Assembly: GCA_028867675.1 (NCBI GenBank)
Contig: JAGWGA010000005.1
Coordinates: forward strand, 1-64,000
Length of the DNA stretch: 64,000 nucleotides
Reading direction: 5' to 3'
Source of the DNA: Nitrososphaerota archaeon
GTDB lineage: Archaea > Thermoproteota > Nitrososphaeria > Nitrososphaerales > Nitrosopumilaceae
The translations under genes and the position numbers were made by a program. The notes below the pieces were generated by a model that saw only the letters and a list, made by a program, of their open reading frames with translations, was not told where the DNA came from and did no database searches. Of the stretch, positions 20,266 through 42,768 are shown piece after piece. Each line of letters starts with the position of its first letter. Position 1 is the first letter of the stretch.

Positions 20266-20346
20266 GACTAGCTCGTTAAATCTTGGAATCTAATTAATGA
20301 TGGTAAACCCAGACTATTATATTGATTAACAAACGAATTTGACAAC

Positions 20347-20362
20347 GTAAACTGTAGTTTAC
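20347..20362. repeat. Perfect palindrome gtaaact-gt-agtttac
   Basis: 7-bp arms, 2-nt spacer. Confidence 0.6.
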
Positions 20363-20389
20363 CGTACTAGGTAATGAACAATTAGAATT

Positions 20390-20637
20390 AACTCAGTTTT
20401 GAACTAGTTCATTTTCACGCACGAAATTAGTTCAAAATGAAAGCTCATGAGTGAAAAATTAGTTAAAAATAGTTTAAAATAATTTTCACGAGTAAAAAAT
20501 TGGTTAATTTACGAGTGAAAAATAGTTCAAAAAAGAGATTGTTAACTTTATGAATTGAACTTTAATTTTTAATACTTTGAAGTTAACTATAACTTGTAAA
20601 CAGTCCATGAACTCAATTTTGAACTATAATTCACATT
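20390..20637. repeat. Repeat-rich non-coding region: four imperfect ~24-nt repeats (consensus yaCGAGTGAAAAAtTAGTTcAAAA) flanked by a degenerate direct repeat aactcaRttttgaacta
   Basis: Copies near 20416-20437, 20446-20470, 20487-20510, 20510-20534; flanking copies 20390-20406 and 20610-20626. Confidence 0.65.
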
Positions 20638-20736
20638 GAATCTTGATGACTTGGTTTTGTCATTTTGCAATTGTAAATGATTTTATCAAAACTATCTTTT
20701 CTTGATCAAAATTCATAATGTCAGGTTTACAAAAAT

Positions 20737-20967
20737 TTGTATGTAAAATTAAGAGTAAATACATCTAGAAATTCGGTGTGTTTAAAACCATTTTTAGTTT
20801 GTTTGGCAGTTAGTATGATACAACTAAGATGTCACAATTGTGATCATTTGTGGTTATACAAAGGAAAGAGTTCTTTTTACACTATATGCCCTCGTTGTCG
20901 TTACAACGTTAACATCAAAAAATACACTATCACAAAAACAGGAGTTAAAGAAATAGATGTCAAATAG
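20737..20967 (+). CDS. Small zinc-ribbon protein
   Basis: MIQLRCHNCDHLWLYKGKSSFYTICPRCRYNV; real start may be the internal ATG at 20815. Confidence 0.55.
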   Translation: MYVKLRVNTSRNSVCLKPFLVCLAVSMIQLRCHNCDHLWLYKGKSSFYTICPRCRYNVNIKKYTITKTGVKEIDVK

Positions 20968-21184
20968 AATAAAATCATTAAAAGTTCGTTGCCAATTCTG
21001 TAGGCGTGTAAACCGAACGAAGAATCTAGAGATGGAGCTTCTTTGTAAGATATGTGGAAAATGGGCAAAACATCGCTTTCAAAAACTTGTACTGAGAAAG
21101 GTACATGATCTTTCTAATCATAAATATCTACAGATCCATGAAGTAATTCCTCAGGATGTAGTACAAGAGGAGATTATAGCTTGA
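20957..21184 (+). CDS. Small zinc-finger protein
   Basis: VRCQFCRRVNRTKNLEMELLCKICGKW. Confidence 0.6.
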   Translation: MSNRIKSLKVRCQFCRRVNRTKNLEMELLCKICGKWAKHRFQKLVLRKVHDLSNHKYLQIHEVIPQDVVQEEIIA

Positions 21185-21381
21185 CTGTAGACTTGGGCAT
21201 AGTACAGACTTTACCTCATAAAGATTGGCTTATTCTTGCTTTGGACAAAAAACTGATGAAATCTAATAATGAAAAATCTCTTGAATTTCAGATTAAAATT
21301 GATAATGATGGGAAATTAATTCTGTTTGGCCCTCGGATAATAGAACCAAACAGAACAGGAGTTAATCTTGATAACAACTAA
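21181..21381 (+). CDS. Small hypothetical protein
   Basis: Overlaps upstream gene stop; TTG start. Confidence 0.5.
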   Translation: MTVDLGIVQTLPHKDWLILALDKKLMKSNNEKSLEFQIKIDNDGKLILFGPRIIEPNRTGVNLDNN

Positions 21382-21523
21382 TTTGCTTTTAATCACACCG
21401 AATCAATTCTCCTTTTTTCCTAAAGTAAAACGAGTATTAGAAATTGAATCTGATGAACGATATTTCCAAAATTGTGAAGATGAATATTATGAACTGATTG
21501 AATCAAGGGAAGAAGATTTCTGA
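21368..21523 (+). CDS. Small acidic hypothetical protein (51 aa)
   Basis: TTG start; ITTNLLLITPNQFSFFPKVKRVLEIESDERYFQNCEDEYYELIESREEDF*; overlaps both neighbouring ORFs. Confidence 0.45.
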   Translation: MITTNLLLITPNQFSFFPKVKRVLEIESDERYFQNCEDEYYELIESREEDF

Positions 21524-23148
21524 TGCATTGGCAATGTGTTTCATGCGACAACAAATCTGCTAAACTTGATGATATTAAATTTGATTCTTGTAAACAAAAT
21601 AATCATAAAATTATGAAAATGCTGTCTCCTTCTGAAGCTAGATCTATTATTAAAAATACTACAAGAGAATCTCCATCAAAATTAATCTATGAATTCATAA
21701 AAACTAGAATTAAAAAATTAATAGTATCTGATAATGATTCTTCCCAAGTATTTGCTCTAGTTGAAAATAATCATAATGAAATTCTTGATCTTTCTAATGG
21801 TAAGGCAAAAGATTGGATTCGATACATGTACTATGAAGAAACTGGTGAAAATCATTCAGATGATGCTTATAAGAACGTCATTTCGTTACTTAGAAGTCAA
21901 GCAATCCATAGTGGAACTATTCACGAACCAATCTACAACAGAATAGCTATGGTTGGTGATACCATCTATTATGATCTAGTTACTACTGATTGGAAATTTG
22001 TTAAGATCACAAAAGAATCTGTAGAGATAGTAAATTATAACAAAAATATGCCTACTTTTGTAAGAAAACAACAACAGAAAGAACAGGTAAAACCGTTATC
22101 AGATGAAAGAGATGCTTTAGACGAGCTAGTAAAACTACTACGAATTCAAGAAAAAGACAGGCAAATATTCAAAGTACATCTTGTATCCATGTTTCTAGAA
22201 GCTTACCCAGTTCCTTTAATGACCATTCTGGGAGAACATGGAAGTATCAAAACTACCATAGCCAAATCTGTTAAACGGATCATAGATCCTTCAGGTGAAA
22301 ATATTTCTTCATTACCTACTAAAATTGAAGATCTAATTCTGCATCTTGCAAATAGATACTTAGCAAATTTTGATAATGTATCTAGCATCAATGATGAAAT
22401 ATCAGATATTCTTTGTAAGGCTATTACAGGTGAAGGACAGTCAAAAAGAAAACTATACACTGATGCAGATGAGATAATTCTAAACTATAGAAGAAAGCTA
22501 ATAGTTAATGGAATATTTCCATATCTTGATCGAACTGATTTAAGAGATAGAATGATTCGTTATGAAACTTTACCGATAAAAGATTCAGAAAGAATGAGTG
22601 AAGGAGAATTCAATAAACATATGACAGAAATATTACCTTATGTGATGAATCAAATCTTCCAGAGTATCCAGAAAACTCTGTCATCTTATGATCATGTCAA
22701 AAATGAAATAAAACACCATTCAAGAATGGCAGATTTTACAGATTATGGAGAATGTATTTCTAGAACGTTAAACTATACACCATTTTCATTTGTTGAATCT
22801 TATAAACAAAAAATTGAAAATGATATTTTAGATATTGTAGAATCATATCCGATAATTCAACTAATAGAAATAATAATGAAGGAAAGAACTCGATATGAAA
22901 AAACAGTTTCAGAATTCTATAGAGAAATCAATAGCTTAGCAGCAATAGAAGAAATAGATGTAGATTCTAAGAAGAGAATCAGATTTCCTTCATCAGCTAA
23001 TAAGGTAAAATCTCATATTGAGAGAATAAAACCAAATCTACGTTCATTAGGATTTGAGGTAGATATTCAGCCATACCAAAAGCGAGATGGTAGATACCCA
23101 CGGGGCAGTCATACTATTATCATATCCAGACCTACTTTAGATATCTAA
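21523..23148 (+). CDS. Mobile-element AAA+/SF3-like ATPase (plasmid/phage primase-helicase type) with N-terminal Zn motif
   Basis: CVSCDNKS...C; Walker A-like GEHGSIKTT; Walker B/sensor region YLANFDNVSSINDEISDILCKAITGEGQSKRKLYTDADEIILNYRRKLIVNGI. Confidence 0.7.
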   Translation: MHWQCVSCDNKSAKLDDIKFDSCKQNNHKIMKMLSPSEARSIIKNTTRESPSKLIYEFIKTRIKKLIVSDNDSSQVFALVENNHNEILDLSNGKAKDWIRYMYYEETGENHSDDAYKNVISLLRSQAIHSGTIHEPIYNRIAMVGDTIYYDLVTTDWKFVKITKESVEIVNYNKNMPTFVRKQQQKEQVKPLSDERDALDELVKLLRIQEKDRQIFKVHLVSMFLEAYPVPLMTILGEHGSIKTTIAKSVKRIIDPSGENISSLPTKIEDLILHLANRYLANFDNVSSINDEISDILCKAITGEGQSKRKLYTDADEIILNYRRKLIVNGIFPYLDRTDLRDRMIRYETLPIKDSERMSEGEFNKHMTEILPYVMNQIFQSIQKTLSSYDHVKNEIKHHSRMADFTDYGECISRTLNYTPFSFVESYKQKIENDILDIVESYPIIQLIEIIMKERTRYEKTVSEFYREINSLAAIEEIDVDSKKRIRFPSSANKVKSHIERIKPNLRSLGFEVDIQPYQKRDGRYPRGSHTIIISRPTLDI

Positions 23149-23154
23149 AAAGAA

Positions 23155-23231
23155 CCTCTGTCATCTCTGTCAGAAATACTCTAGGCTAGGAATAAAATAG
23201 GATTGACAGACGTGGCAGAAATGGCAGAGAT
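23155..23231. repeat. Inverted pair of tandem short iterons
   Basis: cctctgtcatctctgtcagaa (23155-23175) versus ttgacagacgtggcagaaatggcagagat (23203-23231), whose reverse complement is atctctgccatttctgccacgtctgtcaa. Confidence 0.65.
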
Positions 23232-23251
23232 AGTTTTAGAATGAATGAATT

Positions 23252-24196
23252 GTGTTTAAGAAATTTATTCACAGTAGCGCTAATAAAGTACGTAATCATA
23301 CATCCCTCATGACATATGATATTGATATTTTCAAACAAGATTTGGATGCAATTCAAAAGGCACTCCTAGATGACAATCTTGATGGGATAAACATCTTCGC
23401 AAACCGAATTATGAGTAATGCATTCATTATGAGTAGTAGAGAATTTGTATTGCCCGCATTAATGATAAAAGATTTAGATATTTTCCTTTTACAATTAAAA
23501 CAAATACCAAAGGTAAAATCATTTGCAGCCGCAAAAAGTTCTCTTAAATTATTTATTTCACAAGTTGATAAAATTATAGAATCTAAGGATTTTCAAAATG
23601 ATGCATTATGGAAATCATATCATACGTCATTAGGAATTCTTCGAAAATATCTTCTACCAGAAAATGAAAAGGATTCATATGATAAAGAAGATACCGAGTT
23701 TACTAAACAAGCATTTGATATGCTAGTAAAATATCTTGAAAAAAATAAAGAATTTTTAAAAAGACCAAATTATATTCTTAAGAGTATTTTATTGGAAATG
23801 AATAGATTTTATCAAGAATTTGGCATCGATGAAAGAGATGTCAAAGCTCGAATGTTAATAGTAGTAATAAACTACATTTATGATTATATTGAAAAATCTG
23901 ATTTGACAGATGAAAAAATTAGATCAGAAGTAGAAATTTCTCTCATTCCATTTGTTGACAAAATCATTCATACCTTAGAACCAGTAGAAATTCAGCAACC
24001 GGATATCGACAACCTGATTGTAGATATAATCATGCTTTGGAGAGATCAATTTCTTAGATATGGTGAATTACTTACACTACCAACAGAAACCCCCAATAGA
24101 AGAAGTGGTAGGCTAAATTTACCAGAGGAAACAAAGGATAAAATTTCAAAACTCATTACGCAAGGGCTTGAGGATCAAATAAGGAAAGCAAAATAG
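23252..24196 (+). CDS. Hypothetical predicted all-helical protein (314 aa), first gene of SIR2 operon
   Basis: GTG start; no recognised motif; 3 nt between its stop and next ATG. Confidence 0.65.
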   Translation: MFKKFIHSSANKVRNHTSLMTYDIDIFKQDLDAIQKALLDDNLDGINIFANRIMSNAFIMSSREFVLPALMIKDLDIFLLQLKQIPKVKSFAAAKSSLKLFISQVDKIIESKDFQNDALWKSYHTSLGILRKYLLPENEKDSYDKEDTEFTKQAFDMLVKYLEKNKEFLKRPNYILKSILLEMNRFYQEFGIDERDVKARMLIVVINYIYDYIEKSDLTDEKIRSEVEISLIPFVDKIIHTLEPVEIQQPDIDNLIVDIIMLWRDQFLRYGELLTLPTETPNRRSGRLNLPEETKDKISKLITQGLEDQIRKAK

Positions 24197-24199
24197 ATT

Positions 24200-25201
24200 A
24201 TGAAGAAGACTAGTCATAGACCAAATCAGCAATATCTCTTGCGAAGCATAGTAAGCGATTTACAATCTGCTAATTCCGATATGGGAGTAGATGAAATTCT
24301 ATCCCTCATTCCAGACGCAATAGAAGAATTATTGCCAAAAATACTATTCGGTATTAGATTATCAAAGCGCACATTTTCACCATATGAATTTAGACTAAGA
24401 GAAATGAGGATTCACCGAAAACGTGGGATGCTTCAAGAAAGGTTTGAACATCTCGAGGAATCAGACCCCGAATTAATAATAAGCGCTTCTAGAGCGGCAT
24501 TAAACGAAATTACTGATAGTGCATCAGTTTACTATGGAACTCATCATCTTACTAATTCTAATGTATTGCCAATTGAATATAATGTACAAAATGAAATGAT
24601 GTATGCAGCTAGATCGTCAATTACTGAAACTGAATCATACCATATTGCAAGAAAATACGATATTTCTAAAGAAATTGTAACACCAATACGCAAGACTAAA
24701 TTTAAAACTGCTTCATTTAGTCTAGAAGAAGAGATTTCAAGACCCAACCAAGGATTGCCAAAAATTCATACTTTACATGGAGTATTACAAAAGGTACAAG
24801 CAAAAACTTCTGCAAGTGAATTTCTTGCTATTGAAGACATGTTAGACATAGATCATCTCACAAAATCCCGTAAATTAGAACCATCTGAAATATCACTCAC
24901 AAATAAAATTTTATCAGATGACATTAAGCGAAGAAATGATAAATATGATTGTGATTGTGTTGATGAACTTTACAAGAACAGCGAAATTATCCCAATCAGT
25001 CAGCGATTGACAAAACCGAATAAAAACGACAAAATAGCAAAAATAAAAGAGGGAGTGAGAGCAATAATTTTAGACGAGTATGTAAGATTCAAAAAAATAA
25101 AAAACGCTGAATTTTTAGATGGAAAAATTAACTATGATGAATATCAGGAAAAAATAACACAATATGTCAGACAAGTCGCAGAAGCTTGGCCCTCTGGATA
25201 A
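24200..25201 (+). CDS. Hypothetical protein (333 aa), second gene of SIR2 operon
   Basis: Long ORF, C-terminus overlaps the SIR2 gene by 38 nt. Confidence 0.65.
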   Translation: MKKTSHRPNQQYLLRSIVSDLQSANSDMGVDEILSLIPDAIEELLPKILFGIRLSKRTFSPYEFRLREMRIHRKRGMLQERFEHLEESDPELIISASRAALNEITDSASVYYGTHHLTNSNVLPIEYNVQNEMMYAARSSITETESYHIARKYDISKEIVTPIRKTKFKTASFSLEEEISRPNQGLPKIHTLHGVLQKVQAKTSASEFLAIEDMLDIDHLTKSRKLEPSEISLTNKILSDDIKRRNDKYDCDCVDELYKNSEIIPISQRLTKPNKNDKIAKIKEGVRAIILDEYVRFKKIKNAEFLDGKINYDEYQEKITQYVRQVAEAWPSG

Positions 25202-26141
25202 CAAGCTAGAGATCTTCAGATCCACTACAAAGGATTACCTAGTGAGTGAACTGAAGGAATTATCACTAAATCCAGATCAATTGACATCAGTGTTAGAGAA
25301 GTCTATTGATGAAGCAATAAAAGATACAACCAAGAGAATGATACAGAGTAAAGACTTTTCACGTGGAATGCGTTTCTGGCAACGTGATTTAGAAGAATCA
25401 GCATGGCTTTATGTACAAGCAGTATTAGCACAAGGATCTAAAATCAATAATCTACGAGAACATATCAAATCATATGGCTCTGTATTCATCGTAGGTGCAG
25501 GACTTTCTTTCGAAAGTGGACTTCCTCTTATTAGTGTCCTAGAAAGTTTACTTGAATTTTGTAGTTCGAAGAATTATGTGGAATTACAAGGAAATAATGC
25601 AAATGTACTAAAACTCAAAAATGAATTTAGAAGAATTTGTTTAGACAAGAAACCTACAATCTCACATCTTGAGATATCCGAACATTTTCCAGATAAAATA
25701 TGGGAAATTGTTTGTCTGAATTGGGATAATCTCATCGAAGCTGCAGCACAAAGCAAGAGCAAACACATATCTAAAATAAATCAGGAAGTGAATCCCATTA
25801 CAGAACAAAATCATCTGTGGAAATTCCATGGTGATGTGGATATGATCAGTACTGATAATATCAAGGGAAGGGGAGGATGGGTTTTTCCATCAGACGGAGG
25901 TTTTGTCTTAAATTGTTTCCTAAAATATATTCAGGATACAAAAATAACAGAAAAACTGTTTACTTTAGTAATAGTTGGATACAGTGAAAGCGATGAGAAT
26001 GTTTACGAACAAGTGATAAAATTATTTGAACATTCACCTAAGCGCCCTACATTTAGAATAGTTCTTGACTTGAAGAAATTACATGATGCAAAGTATATTG
26101 TAGGGCCTTCTGATTATATTTTACCCAAGATCCTAAACTAA
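25164..26141 (+). CDS. SIR2-domain protein, candidate NADase effector
   Basis: VFIVGAGLSFESGLPLISVLE (NAD-binding GAGxS), LNWDNLIEAAA (NxD), LWKFHGDVD (catalytic-type His), LVIVGYSESDENV. Confidence 0.8.
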   Translation: MSDKSQKLGPLDNKLEIFRSTTKDYLVSELKELSLNPDQLTSVLEKSIDEAIKDTTKRMIQSKDFSRGMRFWQRDLEESAWLYVQAVLAQGSKINNLREHIKSYGSVFIVGAGLSFESGLPLISVLESLLEFCSSKNYVELQGNNANVLKLKNEFRRICLDKKPTISHLEISEHFPDKIWEIVCLNWDNLIEAAAQSKSKHISKINQEVNPITEQNHLWKFHGDVDMISTDNIKGRGGWVFPSDGGFVLNCFLKYIQDTKITEKLFTLVIVGYSESDENVYEQVIKLFEHSPKRPTFRIVLDLKKLHDAKYIVGPSDYILPKILN

Positions 26142-26214
26142 AAACATCAATCCTATTAATAAAAAATTAGATTAATTCCTATGATCTTCTGTATAATACT
26201 GATATACATCAAAT

Positions 26215-26601
26215 ATGAGTATGAAATTGATGCAACAACCAACAAAATTTTTAATTGTTTTTGTATTGAGCATTGTGGCAGGCATTATAATTGAATCTAT
26301 GATTGACTATGCTTACGGGATAAATTGGAAAAATGCCAAACCTGAAGATTTCTTCACAGGAATCACCTCACTATATTCTGGATACATGACATTCTACATG
26401 TTCTTGATATTGTCTATGTTTCTATCTCTCATCCTTACGGTTATTCCATACTTTACTTCAAAATTTCCAGATTCTAAATATATTCCAAAAATTAATAATA
26501 ATACTACAGTAATTCCGATTATCAGAGGCGTAACTTTTGGCTTTGGACTTATGATCTTATATCACTTATTCACAAAAGGATTACCAAAATTATTTATCTA
26601 G
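26215..26601 (+). CDS. Small membrane protein (3 TM)
   Basis: Hydrophobic segments. Confidence 0.55.
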   Translation: MSMKLMQQPTKFLIVFVLSIVAGIIIESMIDYAYGINWKNAKPEDFFTGITSLYSGYMTFYMFLILSMFLSLILTVIPYFTSKFPDSKYIPKINNNTTVIPIIRGVTFGFGLMILYHLFTKGLPKLFI

Positions 26602-26625
26602 TATTAAGATCGAAGATTATATCGC

Positions 26626-27768
26626 TCACGGTTTAAGCATCATTTCCTGTTTTTCTGTTAGCTTAAAACCAAATTTTTCACAAAACTCCATAATTGACTT
26701 GTAATCCTCTTTGATCATATTGAGATCCTTCTCTATCTTGGCGTAATCTGAAATTGTAAGATAAGGTTCAGCTTTTAGATACATTTCTCGTCTTTTTTCT
26801 TCTGTCTGCAGATAGTATGTATCAAGATAGAAATGATGACCCATCAAGGCCTCTGCAAAATCTCTTCCTACTGTATCGCCTACAGTAGTTCTGAAATACT
26901 TTCTAAAAGCATGAAAATGTATCATTCTTCTACCATTTTCATTTAATCTACTTAATTCTGGTATTTTCTGAATATGTCTAGCTAATGTAGTCAACAAGGT
27001 ACATTCAGCAATATACATAGGAGTGCATCTGAATTCTCTTCCTTGCTTCTTAGATTTGCTCTGATATTCTTCATTTTGTGTACGTAGTGTACCAAAAATT
27101 ATCTCATCTGATATTGCTAAGTTATTTTCACTTTCCTTCCAAGAGAAGACCCTTTTGAGATAATCCTTCAGTGCTATTGTTGCTTCAGTTGTTAAAAATG
27201 TCTCTCTCTGTTCCTTTGTTTTTGTAATCTCTGCTCTTATCTTGACCTTGGTAGGTTTTGAATTAAAGTCAATATCTGAAACTTTTATCTGTACTAGCTC
27301 ACCTACTCTGATTCCGCTTGCAACAGCAAACAGTACTGCAGTCTGAAGCTTAACCGGAAGATTTCGTAATAGTCTAACTAAGATCTCTTTGGTAAGTGGT
27401 TCTTCTCTATGCCTACGTTCTTTTGGAAGTTTTACTCTTTTTTTGAACTCTTCAGAATAGATCTTGACATCTTCATGCCAAAGAAAACCTTTGGTAGATG
27501 CCATCCAGAGATGTATTGATGGCGGCTGTTTTCCATTCTTATCTAAATAAGTTACAAACTCTCCTAATATTCTATAAACATCGAGCTTTCCACTCTTGAT
27601 ATTCTCTATGATGTTAACTACAGTTGATTGATGATTTTCTAATACGAATTGCTTGAAGTGATTAAGACCAATCTTATAGGTGTGAACCGTTCCAACACTG
27701 TGTGATATTGCATAAAGTGAATCAAGGTATGCAGAAAAAAGAGTATCATCATTTTTTGGGCTTGACAC
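26626..27768 (-). CDS. Tyrosine recombinase/integrase
   Basis: SGIRVGELVQIKVSD (R), TKTKEQRETF (K), HAFRKYF (HxxR), MGHHFYLDTYYLQ (H..Y). Confidence 0.9.
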   Translation of the reverse strand: MSSPKNDDTLFSAYLDSLYAISHSVGTVHTYKIGLNHFKQFVLENHQSTVVNIIENIKSGKLDVYRILGEFVTYLDKNGKQPPSIHLWMASTKGFLWHEDVKIYSEEFKKRVKLPKERRHREEPLTKEILVRLLRNLPVKLQTAVLFAVASGIRVGELVQIKVSDIDFNSKPTKVKIRAEITKTKEQRETFLTTEATIALKDYLKRVFSWKESENNLAISDEIIFGTLRTQNEEYQSKSKKQGREFRCTPMYIAECTLLTTLARHIQKIPELSRLNENGRRMIHFHAFRKYFRTTVGDTVGRDFAEALMGHHFYLDTYYLQTEEKRREMYLKAEPYLTISDYAKIEKDLNMIKEDYKSIMEFCEKFGFKLTEKQEMMLKP

Positions 27769-27869
27769 GAACAGACAAGCCTAGAAAATCTAGTTAAACA
27801 CACCGATTAACCAAATAGCCGCATTTGGTATATGATGGTTTTTTAAACAAGTGTAACAAGATCTCGACA

Positions 27870-28367
27870 ATGGATGGTCTTTTGATTGGTAGATTTCAAC
27901 CGTTTCACAAGGGACACTTGGCAGCTGTAGATTTTGCATTATCAAAGATTGAAAATCTATGGATTGGAATTGGAAGCTCAAACAAGAGCAATGAAAAAAG
28001 AAATCCATTTACCGCAGATGAACGAAAAGAAATGGTTCTCTCTTCCCTTGGTCCTGAGAGACTAAAAAGAGTCCAGATATTCTATGTTCCAGATACTGGT
28101 GATCATGACAAGTGGACTTTACATGTTGATTCTATTGTTCCAAAGTATGATGTAGTTTTTTCAAATGATGACTTTACTATTACATTATACAAAAAAAGAG
28201 AGAAAACCGTCATTGAGGTTCCTCTGTTGGAGCGAGATATGATATCTGGAACAAATATTCGTGAAATGATCTCTAGTGGAAAAGATTGGTCCGATCTTGT
28301 TCCTGAAGGAACTAAAAATGTGCTCTTAAAAATAGACGCAAAAACTAGGCTTTCCAAGATTCTTTAA
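27870..28367 (+). CDS. Nicotinamide-nucleotide adenylyltransferase (archaeal type)
   Basis: ORF 27825-28367, start MDGLLIGRFQPFHKGHLAAV at 27870; GxFxPxHxGH and SGTNIREMISSG (ISSTxxR-type). Confidence 0.92.
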   Translation: MDGLLIGRFQPFHKGHLAAVDFALSKIENLWIGIGSSNKSNEKRNPFTADERKEMVLSSLGPERLKRVQIFYVPDTGDHDKWTLHVDSIVPKYDVVFSNDDFTITLYKKREKTVIEVPLLERDMISGTNIREMISSGKDWSDLVPEGTKNVLLKIDAKTRLSKIL

Positions 28368-41652: not shown

Positions 41653-42768
41653 TTAGAAGCCATTTGGTAAGATTCCTTTATCTCTCATTTCATCAAGGAT
41701 TTTCTTGTCCTGTTTGGCCTGATTTTCCCTTAGCTTTTTGACCTCTTCTCTAAGTTCTTTAATAGATTGATTTTCATCACGAAGCTTTTCTATCTCTAAT
41801 TCATTTTTTGTCTGATCAAATACAACTAAATCTAATTCTAATTCTAGATACATTTTCAATTTATCTTCATCTGATATTCTGTCATACTGCATTAGATAAC
41901 CGCCATGGCCAGTAAGCTTATGTGCATAATTTTCTCCATGTTTTCTTGTTGCAAAAGTAAAGAAATATGCTCTAAAGCTATGTGATGTAATTTTGTAAAA
42001 TCCATTTGATGAATATTTCTGATTATATCCTAGTCTTTCAAGTACATTGTTCAAAATCTGTTGCTCATTTCTCATCTTATCCCCATTCCCAGTATCACAG
42101 AAAACTAGATCGTTATCATTTAATTTATCTAAATAAATGCGAATTTTTTGTTCACATTCTTTTGAAACAAATGTAGTTCTTGCTTCTTTTGTTTTTGTAT
42201 ATTCTGCCTTTATCTTAATCATAATTCTCTGAAGAGAAAAATCCAAATCTTTTTTACGGATTTTAAGAGCCTCACCCATTCTCATTCCGGAGCTACTACA
42301 AGCTAAATACAATGCCTGTCTTTTTGGATATCTACCATGTGCTAGAACTAAATCTTTTAATTCTTGTTTCTTAAGTGGATATCTTTCTTCATTAATCTTC
42401 TTTGGAAATTTTAGTAATTGTTTAATGTCTTGGGAATTAGTTTTGACTCCTAGATGATAAAGATAAGATCTGATACAGCTAAATCTTGTTCTTATTGTGT
42501 AATTTCCTGTCTTTACTGTGATATTCCAATCAATCCAGTCTTGGAGTAGAGTGTACAAAGCATCTTGGTATTCGTCTTCACCTTCAGATTTCTTGGTTTT
42601 TAATAATTCCAGACAAAGATTATCCGGACTAGTTTGATATTTTTCCTCACAAAATCTAATGAAGTTTCTTATCGCTCCACGTACACTTTCCCAACTTTTC
42701 TTCGGTAGAGTACGAGATATCTTTTCTAGGTAAGACTCTGTAGTTCGCTTTTTTACAAGTATGCTCAT
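41653..42768 (-). CDS. Tyrosine recombinase/integrase with C-terminal coiled coil
   Basis: SSGMRMGEALKIRKKD (R), TKTKEARTTF (K), HSFRAYF (HxxR), TGHGGYLMQYDR (H..Y). Confidence 0.9.
   Translation of the reverse strand: MSILVKKRTTESYLEKISRTLPKKSWESVRGAIRNFIRFCEEKYQTSPDNLCLELLKTKKSEGEDEYQDALYTLLQDWIDWNITVKTGNYTIRTRFSCIRSYLYHLGVKTNSQDIKQLLKFPKKINEERYPLKKQELKDLVLAHGRYPKRQALYLACSSSGMRMGEALKIRKKDLDFSLQRIMIKIKAEYTKTKEARTTFVSKECEQKIRIYLDKLNDNDLVFCDTGNGDKMRNEQQILNNVLERLGYNQKYSSNGFYKITSHSFRAYFFTFATRKHGENYAHKLTGHGGYLMQYDRISDEDKLKMYLELELDLVVFDQTKNELEIEKLRDENQSIKELREEVKKLRENQAKQDKKILDEMRDKGILPNGF

Follow-up and report, generated by a model that had tools for sequence, protein, structure and literature searches.

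A SIR2-encoding gene trio on an integrated archaeal element as a candidate defence unit with exchangeable effectors

Introduction

A SIR2-type gene encoded together with two genes of no recognizable family raises the question of whether the three form a system of their own and what such a system would do. A trio of this kind occupies positions 23252-26141 of a 64,000-nucleotide stretch (hereafter the window) of contig JAGWGA010000005.1, from the assembly GCA_028867675.1 of a Nitrosopumilaceae archaeon. A sequence-only reading had presented it as a candidate three-gene defence operon on an integrated element, not recognised as a described system, with SIR2 as the effector and the two partners as sensor, regulator or immunity components. 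The analysis reported here leans, with somewhat better than even probability, toward reading the trio as one form of an abortive defence system that has not been described before, consists of three components, travels on mobile elements and can swap its effector.

Results

A conserved gene pair precedes the SIR2 gene

The trio consists of three collinear open reading frames (ORFs) on the forward strand, with the coordinates, lengths, gap and overlap given in the sequence-only reading. Protein A (23252-24196, 314 aa from a GTG start), the presumed sensor or scaffold, is followed after 3 nt by protein B (24200-25201, 333 aa), the presumed adaptor, which overlaps the gene of the SIR2-type effector (25164-26141, 325 aa) by 38 nt. 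The ORF of A stands; its GTG start is doubtful. The true start is probably the ATG at 23309, giving a protein of 295 aa, because homologues start near this position and residues 1-17 have a predicted local distance difference test score (pLDDT) below 50 in the AlphaFold model.

With protein A as query, 250 genomes of the family yielded four clear homologues (24-29% identity). An alignment of these four extended the family to bins assigned to Bathyarchaeota, Dehalococcoidia and Methanofastidiosum/Syntrophorhabdus and to further Thermoproteota; the distant relatives were reached by this alignment only. With duplicate contigs merged (L033 with L034, L037 with L036, L035 with L024, and a match in G970 with L032, identical contig coordinates), ten independent loci were obtained: the window, L021 (G092), L022 (G217), L023 (G177), L024 (G141, a Nitrosopumilus metagenome-assembled genome), L032 (Bathyarchaeota), L034 (Dehalococcoidia), L036, L044 (G330) and L055 (G680).

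A B gene lies directly after A on the matching strand in 10/10 loci, with gaps of -4 to +44 nt, and L034 carries a matching A-B-SIR2 trio. The arrangement is therefore more than chance, and the co-conservation to be expected of the proposed operon is present. The A-B unit is rare and scattered: it occurs in 6 of 400 genomes of the class and 5 of 398 of the phylum, and among 201 genomes of the bacterial phylum of L034 it was found only in the L034 genome itself.

Near-identical A-B regions were also recovered from bins of different phyla (L033/L034, Bacteroidetes/Dehalococcoidia; L036/L037, Methanofastidiosum/Syntrophorhabdus), and in each pair one or both bins are probably wrongly assigned. 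For L034, Dehalococcoidia is the safer host, because of its 186-kb contig.

The SIR2 protein is a likely NAD+ hydrolase

The SIR2 protein matches the Pfam family SIR2_2 (PF13289) above its cutoff (E 2.4e-8, 34.6 bits against 24.5). Its motifs are GAGLSFESGLP together with NWD and KFHGD, the latter two as listed in the sequence-only reading; GAGLS occupies residues 111-115, and the other conserved residues are N186, D188 and H222. The L034 orthologue, 39% identical over the full length, keeps all of these, including the catalytic Asn and His. In the Nezha system, immunity is lost when the corresponding active-site Asn or His is mutated (PMC11559045). Alignment with CobB-type sirtuins of relatives showed that the zinc-binding cysteines and the TFR motif are absent from the trio protein. 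NAD+ hydrolysis is the likely activity because the GAGLS, N186, D188 and H222 positions are kept while the zinc-binding cysteines and the TFR motif are lacking.

The protein could instead be a protein deacylase or an ADP-ribosyl-modifying regulator, in which case the trio would have a regulatory, non-killing role acting on genes of the host or the element. In favour of this account are weak similarities to deacylase models. It is nonetheless very improbable, since the sirtuin cysteines and TFR motif are missing, SIR2_2 is the best family and, as described below, a HEPN protein replaces the third gene in sister units.

The remaining similarities of the SIR2 proteins are distant. The ThsA model matches the window protein weakly (E 0.0027, 14 bits), and the L034 protein shows a weak match to the Avs5 model and, among plasmids, matches best to SIR2-like regions of uncharacterised ~1,100-aa proteins. 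A single-protein scan of the genome contigs with SIR2 alone gave no match. Three further SIR2 matches were rejected as effector relatives: those in G190 and G136 align with CobB-type sirtuins (Pfam-confirmed for G190), and that in G009 does not keep the catalytic motifs.

The third gene is exchanged between units

SIR2 occupies the third position in the window and in L034, where it overlaps B by 4 nt. In five other loci (L032, L044, L055, L021 and L023) the third gene encodes a HEPN protein. The L032 protein matches PF05168 (E 4.8e-7), and the L055 assignment was made by eye, on the basis of shared motifs. A profile of four of the HEPN proteins matches the solved HEPN structures 9xbd (E 5.5e-7) and 9xbc (E 1.4e-6) and, weakly, the UPF0332 protein AF0298; in the four-row alignment, R30, R35 and H62 do not vary. 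Whether these proteins would act as RNases is uncertain. In L022 and L024, B is longer and is followed, in reverse orientation, by a pair of homologous ORFs (150 and 136 aa), and in L036 a short B is followed by a 105-aa ORF and a probable membrane protein.

In the tree of A, L021 and L023 (HEPN) form one supported group (100/99) with L022 and L024 (other third genes), apart from the remaining HEPN units. This implies at least one exchange of the third gene. The tree test did not establish that the window and L034 gained SIR2 independently (approximately unbiased test, p 0.139). Taken as a family, SIR2 is one flavour of the unit and not its defining part.

Protein B is modular

Pfam, PADLOC and PHROGs hold no family for B, and the NCBIfam match to it is chance-level. 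To compare the B proteins, Smith-Waterman Z-scores against shuffled sequences were computed for every pair, with the N-terminal 115 aa and the remainder treated separately. Residues ~1-110 are common to all effector classes, and the remainder is similar within one effector class only. Against the HEPN-type units L032 and L055, the N-terminal part of the window protein scores Z 14.1 and 12.4, respectively, and it scores 0.8 when compared directly with L034. For the remainder, Z reaches 20.4 between the window and L034, up to 23.4 among HEPN units and 14.5 between L022 and L024, against at most 2.3 between classes. BLASTP agrees with this picture; the C-terminal part of the window protein (about residues 200-333) is shared only with the other SIR2-type unit.

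Profile searches gave the same division. A profile of the B N-terminal part, built from non-SIR2 units only, picked exactly the ten B genes from 757 ORFs, among them those of L034 (E 1.5e-7) and the window (E 1.7e-5), with the next ORF at E 0.66. Profiles of the C-terminal part found only their own effector class, with a shuffle control run alongside. Because the N-terminal end is common across classes and the C-terminal end varies with the effector, B is probably an adaptor that couples A to an interchangeable effector. This refines the earlier proposal of sensor or regulator partners: B would be an effector-matched adaptor and SIR2 one of several effectors, and a defence function is still something that we infer. 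MarR and CARF matches on the L022 B protein were disregarded, being below cutoff or no better than chance.

Protein A is an all-helical protein of no known family

Protein A has no family in Pfam, PADLOC, PHROGs or NCBIfam. Structure prediction bore out its expected helical character: the AlphaFold model (pLDDT 77, predicted template modelling score 0.75) contains twelve helices, the last of which (292-313) follows a low-confidence linker. Foldseek searches of the model against the PDB and viral libraries gave no match with E <0.001. Across the ten aligned A proteins, 11 columns are invariant, among them N28, I29, N32, R33 and M35 (295-aa numbering). Viral contigs yielded nothing, whether scanned with A, B and SIR2 as single proteins or with profiles, and neither A nor B had a match among plasmids and phages. 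Csa5/Cas11a matches on the L032 A protein, likewise sub-cutoff or chance-level, were disregarded.

Other copies lie among defence and mobile genes

The genomic neighborhoods of the sister units provide further evidence. A second SIR2_2 gene (E 3.1e-9) accompanies the L034 trio, as do genes for a BglII-type endonuclease (E 6.6e-45) and an MT-A70 methylase (E 3.2e-30). Close to the L023 unit, an AbiJ_NTD4 protein (E 2.9e-11) is encoded, and a SNF2-type helicase and a weak HSDR_N match are found around L032. Integrase genes or fragments lie near L021, L022 and L055, and a D5-type primase-helicase near L023. Defence or conflict systems typically look like this: rare, patchily distributed, carried by mobile elements and equipped with toxic-type effectors. 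The units are associated with defence genes and mobile elements, as anti-phage systems are.

The same surroundings bring in the main rival to a defence reading, a three-gene toxin-antitoxin, or addiction, module of integrated plasmids. Here, A and B would hold the SIR2 or HEPN toxin inactive and loss of the element would free it, with no sensing of infection. Carriage by integrated elements, with integrase or replication genes adjacent, fits such a module, as do the tight, overlapping genes of the unit, and HEPN proteins are classical toxins of toxin-antitoxin systems (PMC3710099). However, A and B together comprise ~600 aa, which is unusually large for an antitoxin, and A shows neither a DNA-binding-type family nor an autoregulator signature. 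Furthermore, L034 and L032 adjoin restriction-modification or Abi genes with no obvious replicon, and known defence SIR2 toxins are normally trigger-activated. An addiction module is accordingly regarded as a real but minor possibility.

The trio is carried by an integrated element

The element spans 20297-27839, between the genes of RtcA and NadM, and is bounded by an 8-bp direct repeat, ATGATGGT, at 20297-20304 (attL) and 27832-27839 (attR). Five relatives within the genus (L068, L069, L070, L071 and L075) lack the insert: there, the genes of RtcA and NadM are joined, with a single copy of ATGATGGT. This empty site establishes the integrated element that had been proposed from sequence alone; because the relatives hold one copy and the window two, the insert measures 7,535 bp (20297-27831). 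Its GC content is 31.7%, against 34-35% in the flanks.

In line with the sequence-only reading, which put it between a replication operon and an integrase, the trio lies after a plasmid-helicase-like gene and before a tyrosine integrase gene. The former (21523-23148, forward strand) encodes a 541-aa protein without a Pfam family, presumed to act in replication; the latter (26626-27768, reverse strand) matches PF00589 (E 1.7e-12) and a PHROG integrase (E 1e-17). Homologues of the helicase-like protein at 34-42% identity occur in G209 (three), G197 and G092. The three in G209, a genome of the same genus, lie on three contigs (L025, L026 and L027) and a further relative is L028 (G197). Most of the relatives L025-L028 lie beside integrase-like ORFs, and together they represent a family of small integrated plasmids.

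The units in the window and L044 directly follow a replication-like ATPase gene, which would suit a reading in which A and B serve element housekeeping (replication, partition or regulation) and the SIR2 and HEPN genes are unrelated passengers at a cargo site. This is very improbable. A and B occur without the helicase in L034 and L032, they match no viral or plasmid family or record, and the change of the C-terminal part of B with effector class is not explained by passengers. The absence of a family match also means that the two partners did not turn out to be known plasmid replication or partition proteins.

The remaining features of the element are small. Three short ORFs (76, 75 and 66 aa; 20737-21381, forward strand) precede the helicase-like gene; the first two look like Zn-ribbon proteins, and the 76-aa ORF has weak, sub-cutoff Pfam Zn-ribbon matches. 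The stretch between the helicase-like gene and A (23149-23251, forward strand) contains two direct copies of CTCTGTCA as well as inverted copies, and a long hairpin is possible. Its fold z is -2.53, with 3/200 shuffles folding equally well, and it may be an operator, iteron or terminator. Downstream of the trio, a gene at 26215-26601 (forward strand) encodes a 128-aa predicted membrane protein with sub-cutoff Pfam matches only; it has no homologue beside the other A-B units and is not conserved with the trio.

The RtcA-NadM site is variable. In G203 (L072:1683-4989) it holds a different, 3.3-kb insert encoding a protease-like 622-aa protein and a 182-aa ORF, in which no integrase was seen, and in G210 (L073:1702-1746) it differs by ~43 bp. 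The unit, with its presumably NAD-consuming SIR2 protein, adjoins nadM (27825-28367), an NAD-synthesis gene. Because the site is empty in relatives, this proximity is probably a property of the integration site and a coincidence. Elsewhere in the window, a second tyrosine integrase (41653-42768, reverse strand), 26% identical to that of the element, may mark another integrated element.

Discussion

A candidate defence system with a common detector and exchangeable effectors

In the favoured defence reading, A would be the common sensor or scaffold, on which the N-terminal part of B would dock, with the C-terminal part of B fitting one effector. On sensing a trigger that comes from an invading virus or a competing element, A-B would release or activate the effector. 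SIR2 would then deplete NAD+, or HEPN in sister units would attack RNA, and the cell would stop before the invader spreads. The complex, its trigger, the NADase activity and the resulting protection are steps that we infer.

Several observations weigh against this interpretation. Toxin-antitoxin modules can have an identical gene layout, only two SIR2-type units are known, and in three loci (L022, L024 and L036) the nature of the third gene is unclear. The AlphaFold model of B is unusable (pLDDT 47). Finally, the canonical Rx4-6H motif is absent from the HEPN members, whose usual site reads R-x3-ADY; the same motif is absent in many HEPN toxins (PMC3710099).

More broadly, the chances are about even that the units form a new archaeal and bacterial immune family, in which a helical sensor A and a two-faced adaptor B, its C-terminal half exchanged with the effector (SIR2, HEPN or others), would connect one detector to different killing chemistries. 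The coordinated exchange of the C-terminal half of B and the effector is a natural experiment on how one detector can be coupled to unrelated toxic enzymes. The adaptor model predicts that A binds the N-terminal part of B, that the effector binds its C-terminal part and that a chimeric B re-wires the effector. A and B represent two undescribed protein families, and existing defence models would miss the unit except via its SIR2 or HEPN gene. According to a 2026 archaeal immunity survey, the known defence systems of archaeal origin are few, and nearly one third of archaeal genomes show none apart from CRISPR and restriction-modification (PMC12988326).

Comparison with known systems

The trio shares single features with several described systems. 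Like SIR2-HerA (Nezha), it has a SIR2-type effector, here a probable NADase, that contains the catalytic Asn and His and is encoded beside a partner; in Nezha, the partner is needed for activity (PMC11559045). However, the Nezha partner is a HerA ATPase, whereas the trio has two helical proteins and an effector exchangeable for HEPN; no ATPase family was found in A or B with Pfam, PADLOC or NCBIfam. DSR1/DSR2, Avs5 and similar large proteins also carry an N-terminal SIR2 domain, but there SIR2 and sensor are fused (about 1,000 aa in DSR), whereas here a 325-aa SIR2 protein is separate from A and B. Thoeris likewise encodes a SIR2 effector with a partner (the SIR2-SLOG protein ThsA and the TIR protein ThsB), but the trio has no SLOG domain and no TIR protein, with no TIR match in A or B. 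The Argonaute or APAZ match that would indicate SIR2-pAgo/SPARSA was likewise absent from both. The HEPN proteins of sister units weakly resemble HEPN_IX and PDC-M05B, recalling the HEPN-MNT and PDC-M05 systems, the latter enriched in archaea (PMC12988326). Unlike PDC-M05, which pairs HEPN with a nucleotidyltransferase, the units have A and B proteins that match no nucleotidyltransferase family, those of L032, L021 and L023 included.

Because these defining partners and features were looked for and not found, the trio is not SIR2-HerA, Thoeris, DSR, SIR2-pAgo or PDC-M05. Full-text literature searches, which covered few subscription papers and preprints, and targeted look-ups in a thaumarchaeal mobile-element survey (PMC6563490), an archaeal dark-matter survey (PMC4158269) and the 2026 archaeal immunity survey (PMC12988326) found no such unit, and it is probably absent from the literature. 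The interpretation put forward in the sequence-only reading is supported. The effectors are of known kinds; what is new is the A-B chassis with its effector-matched adaptor.
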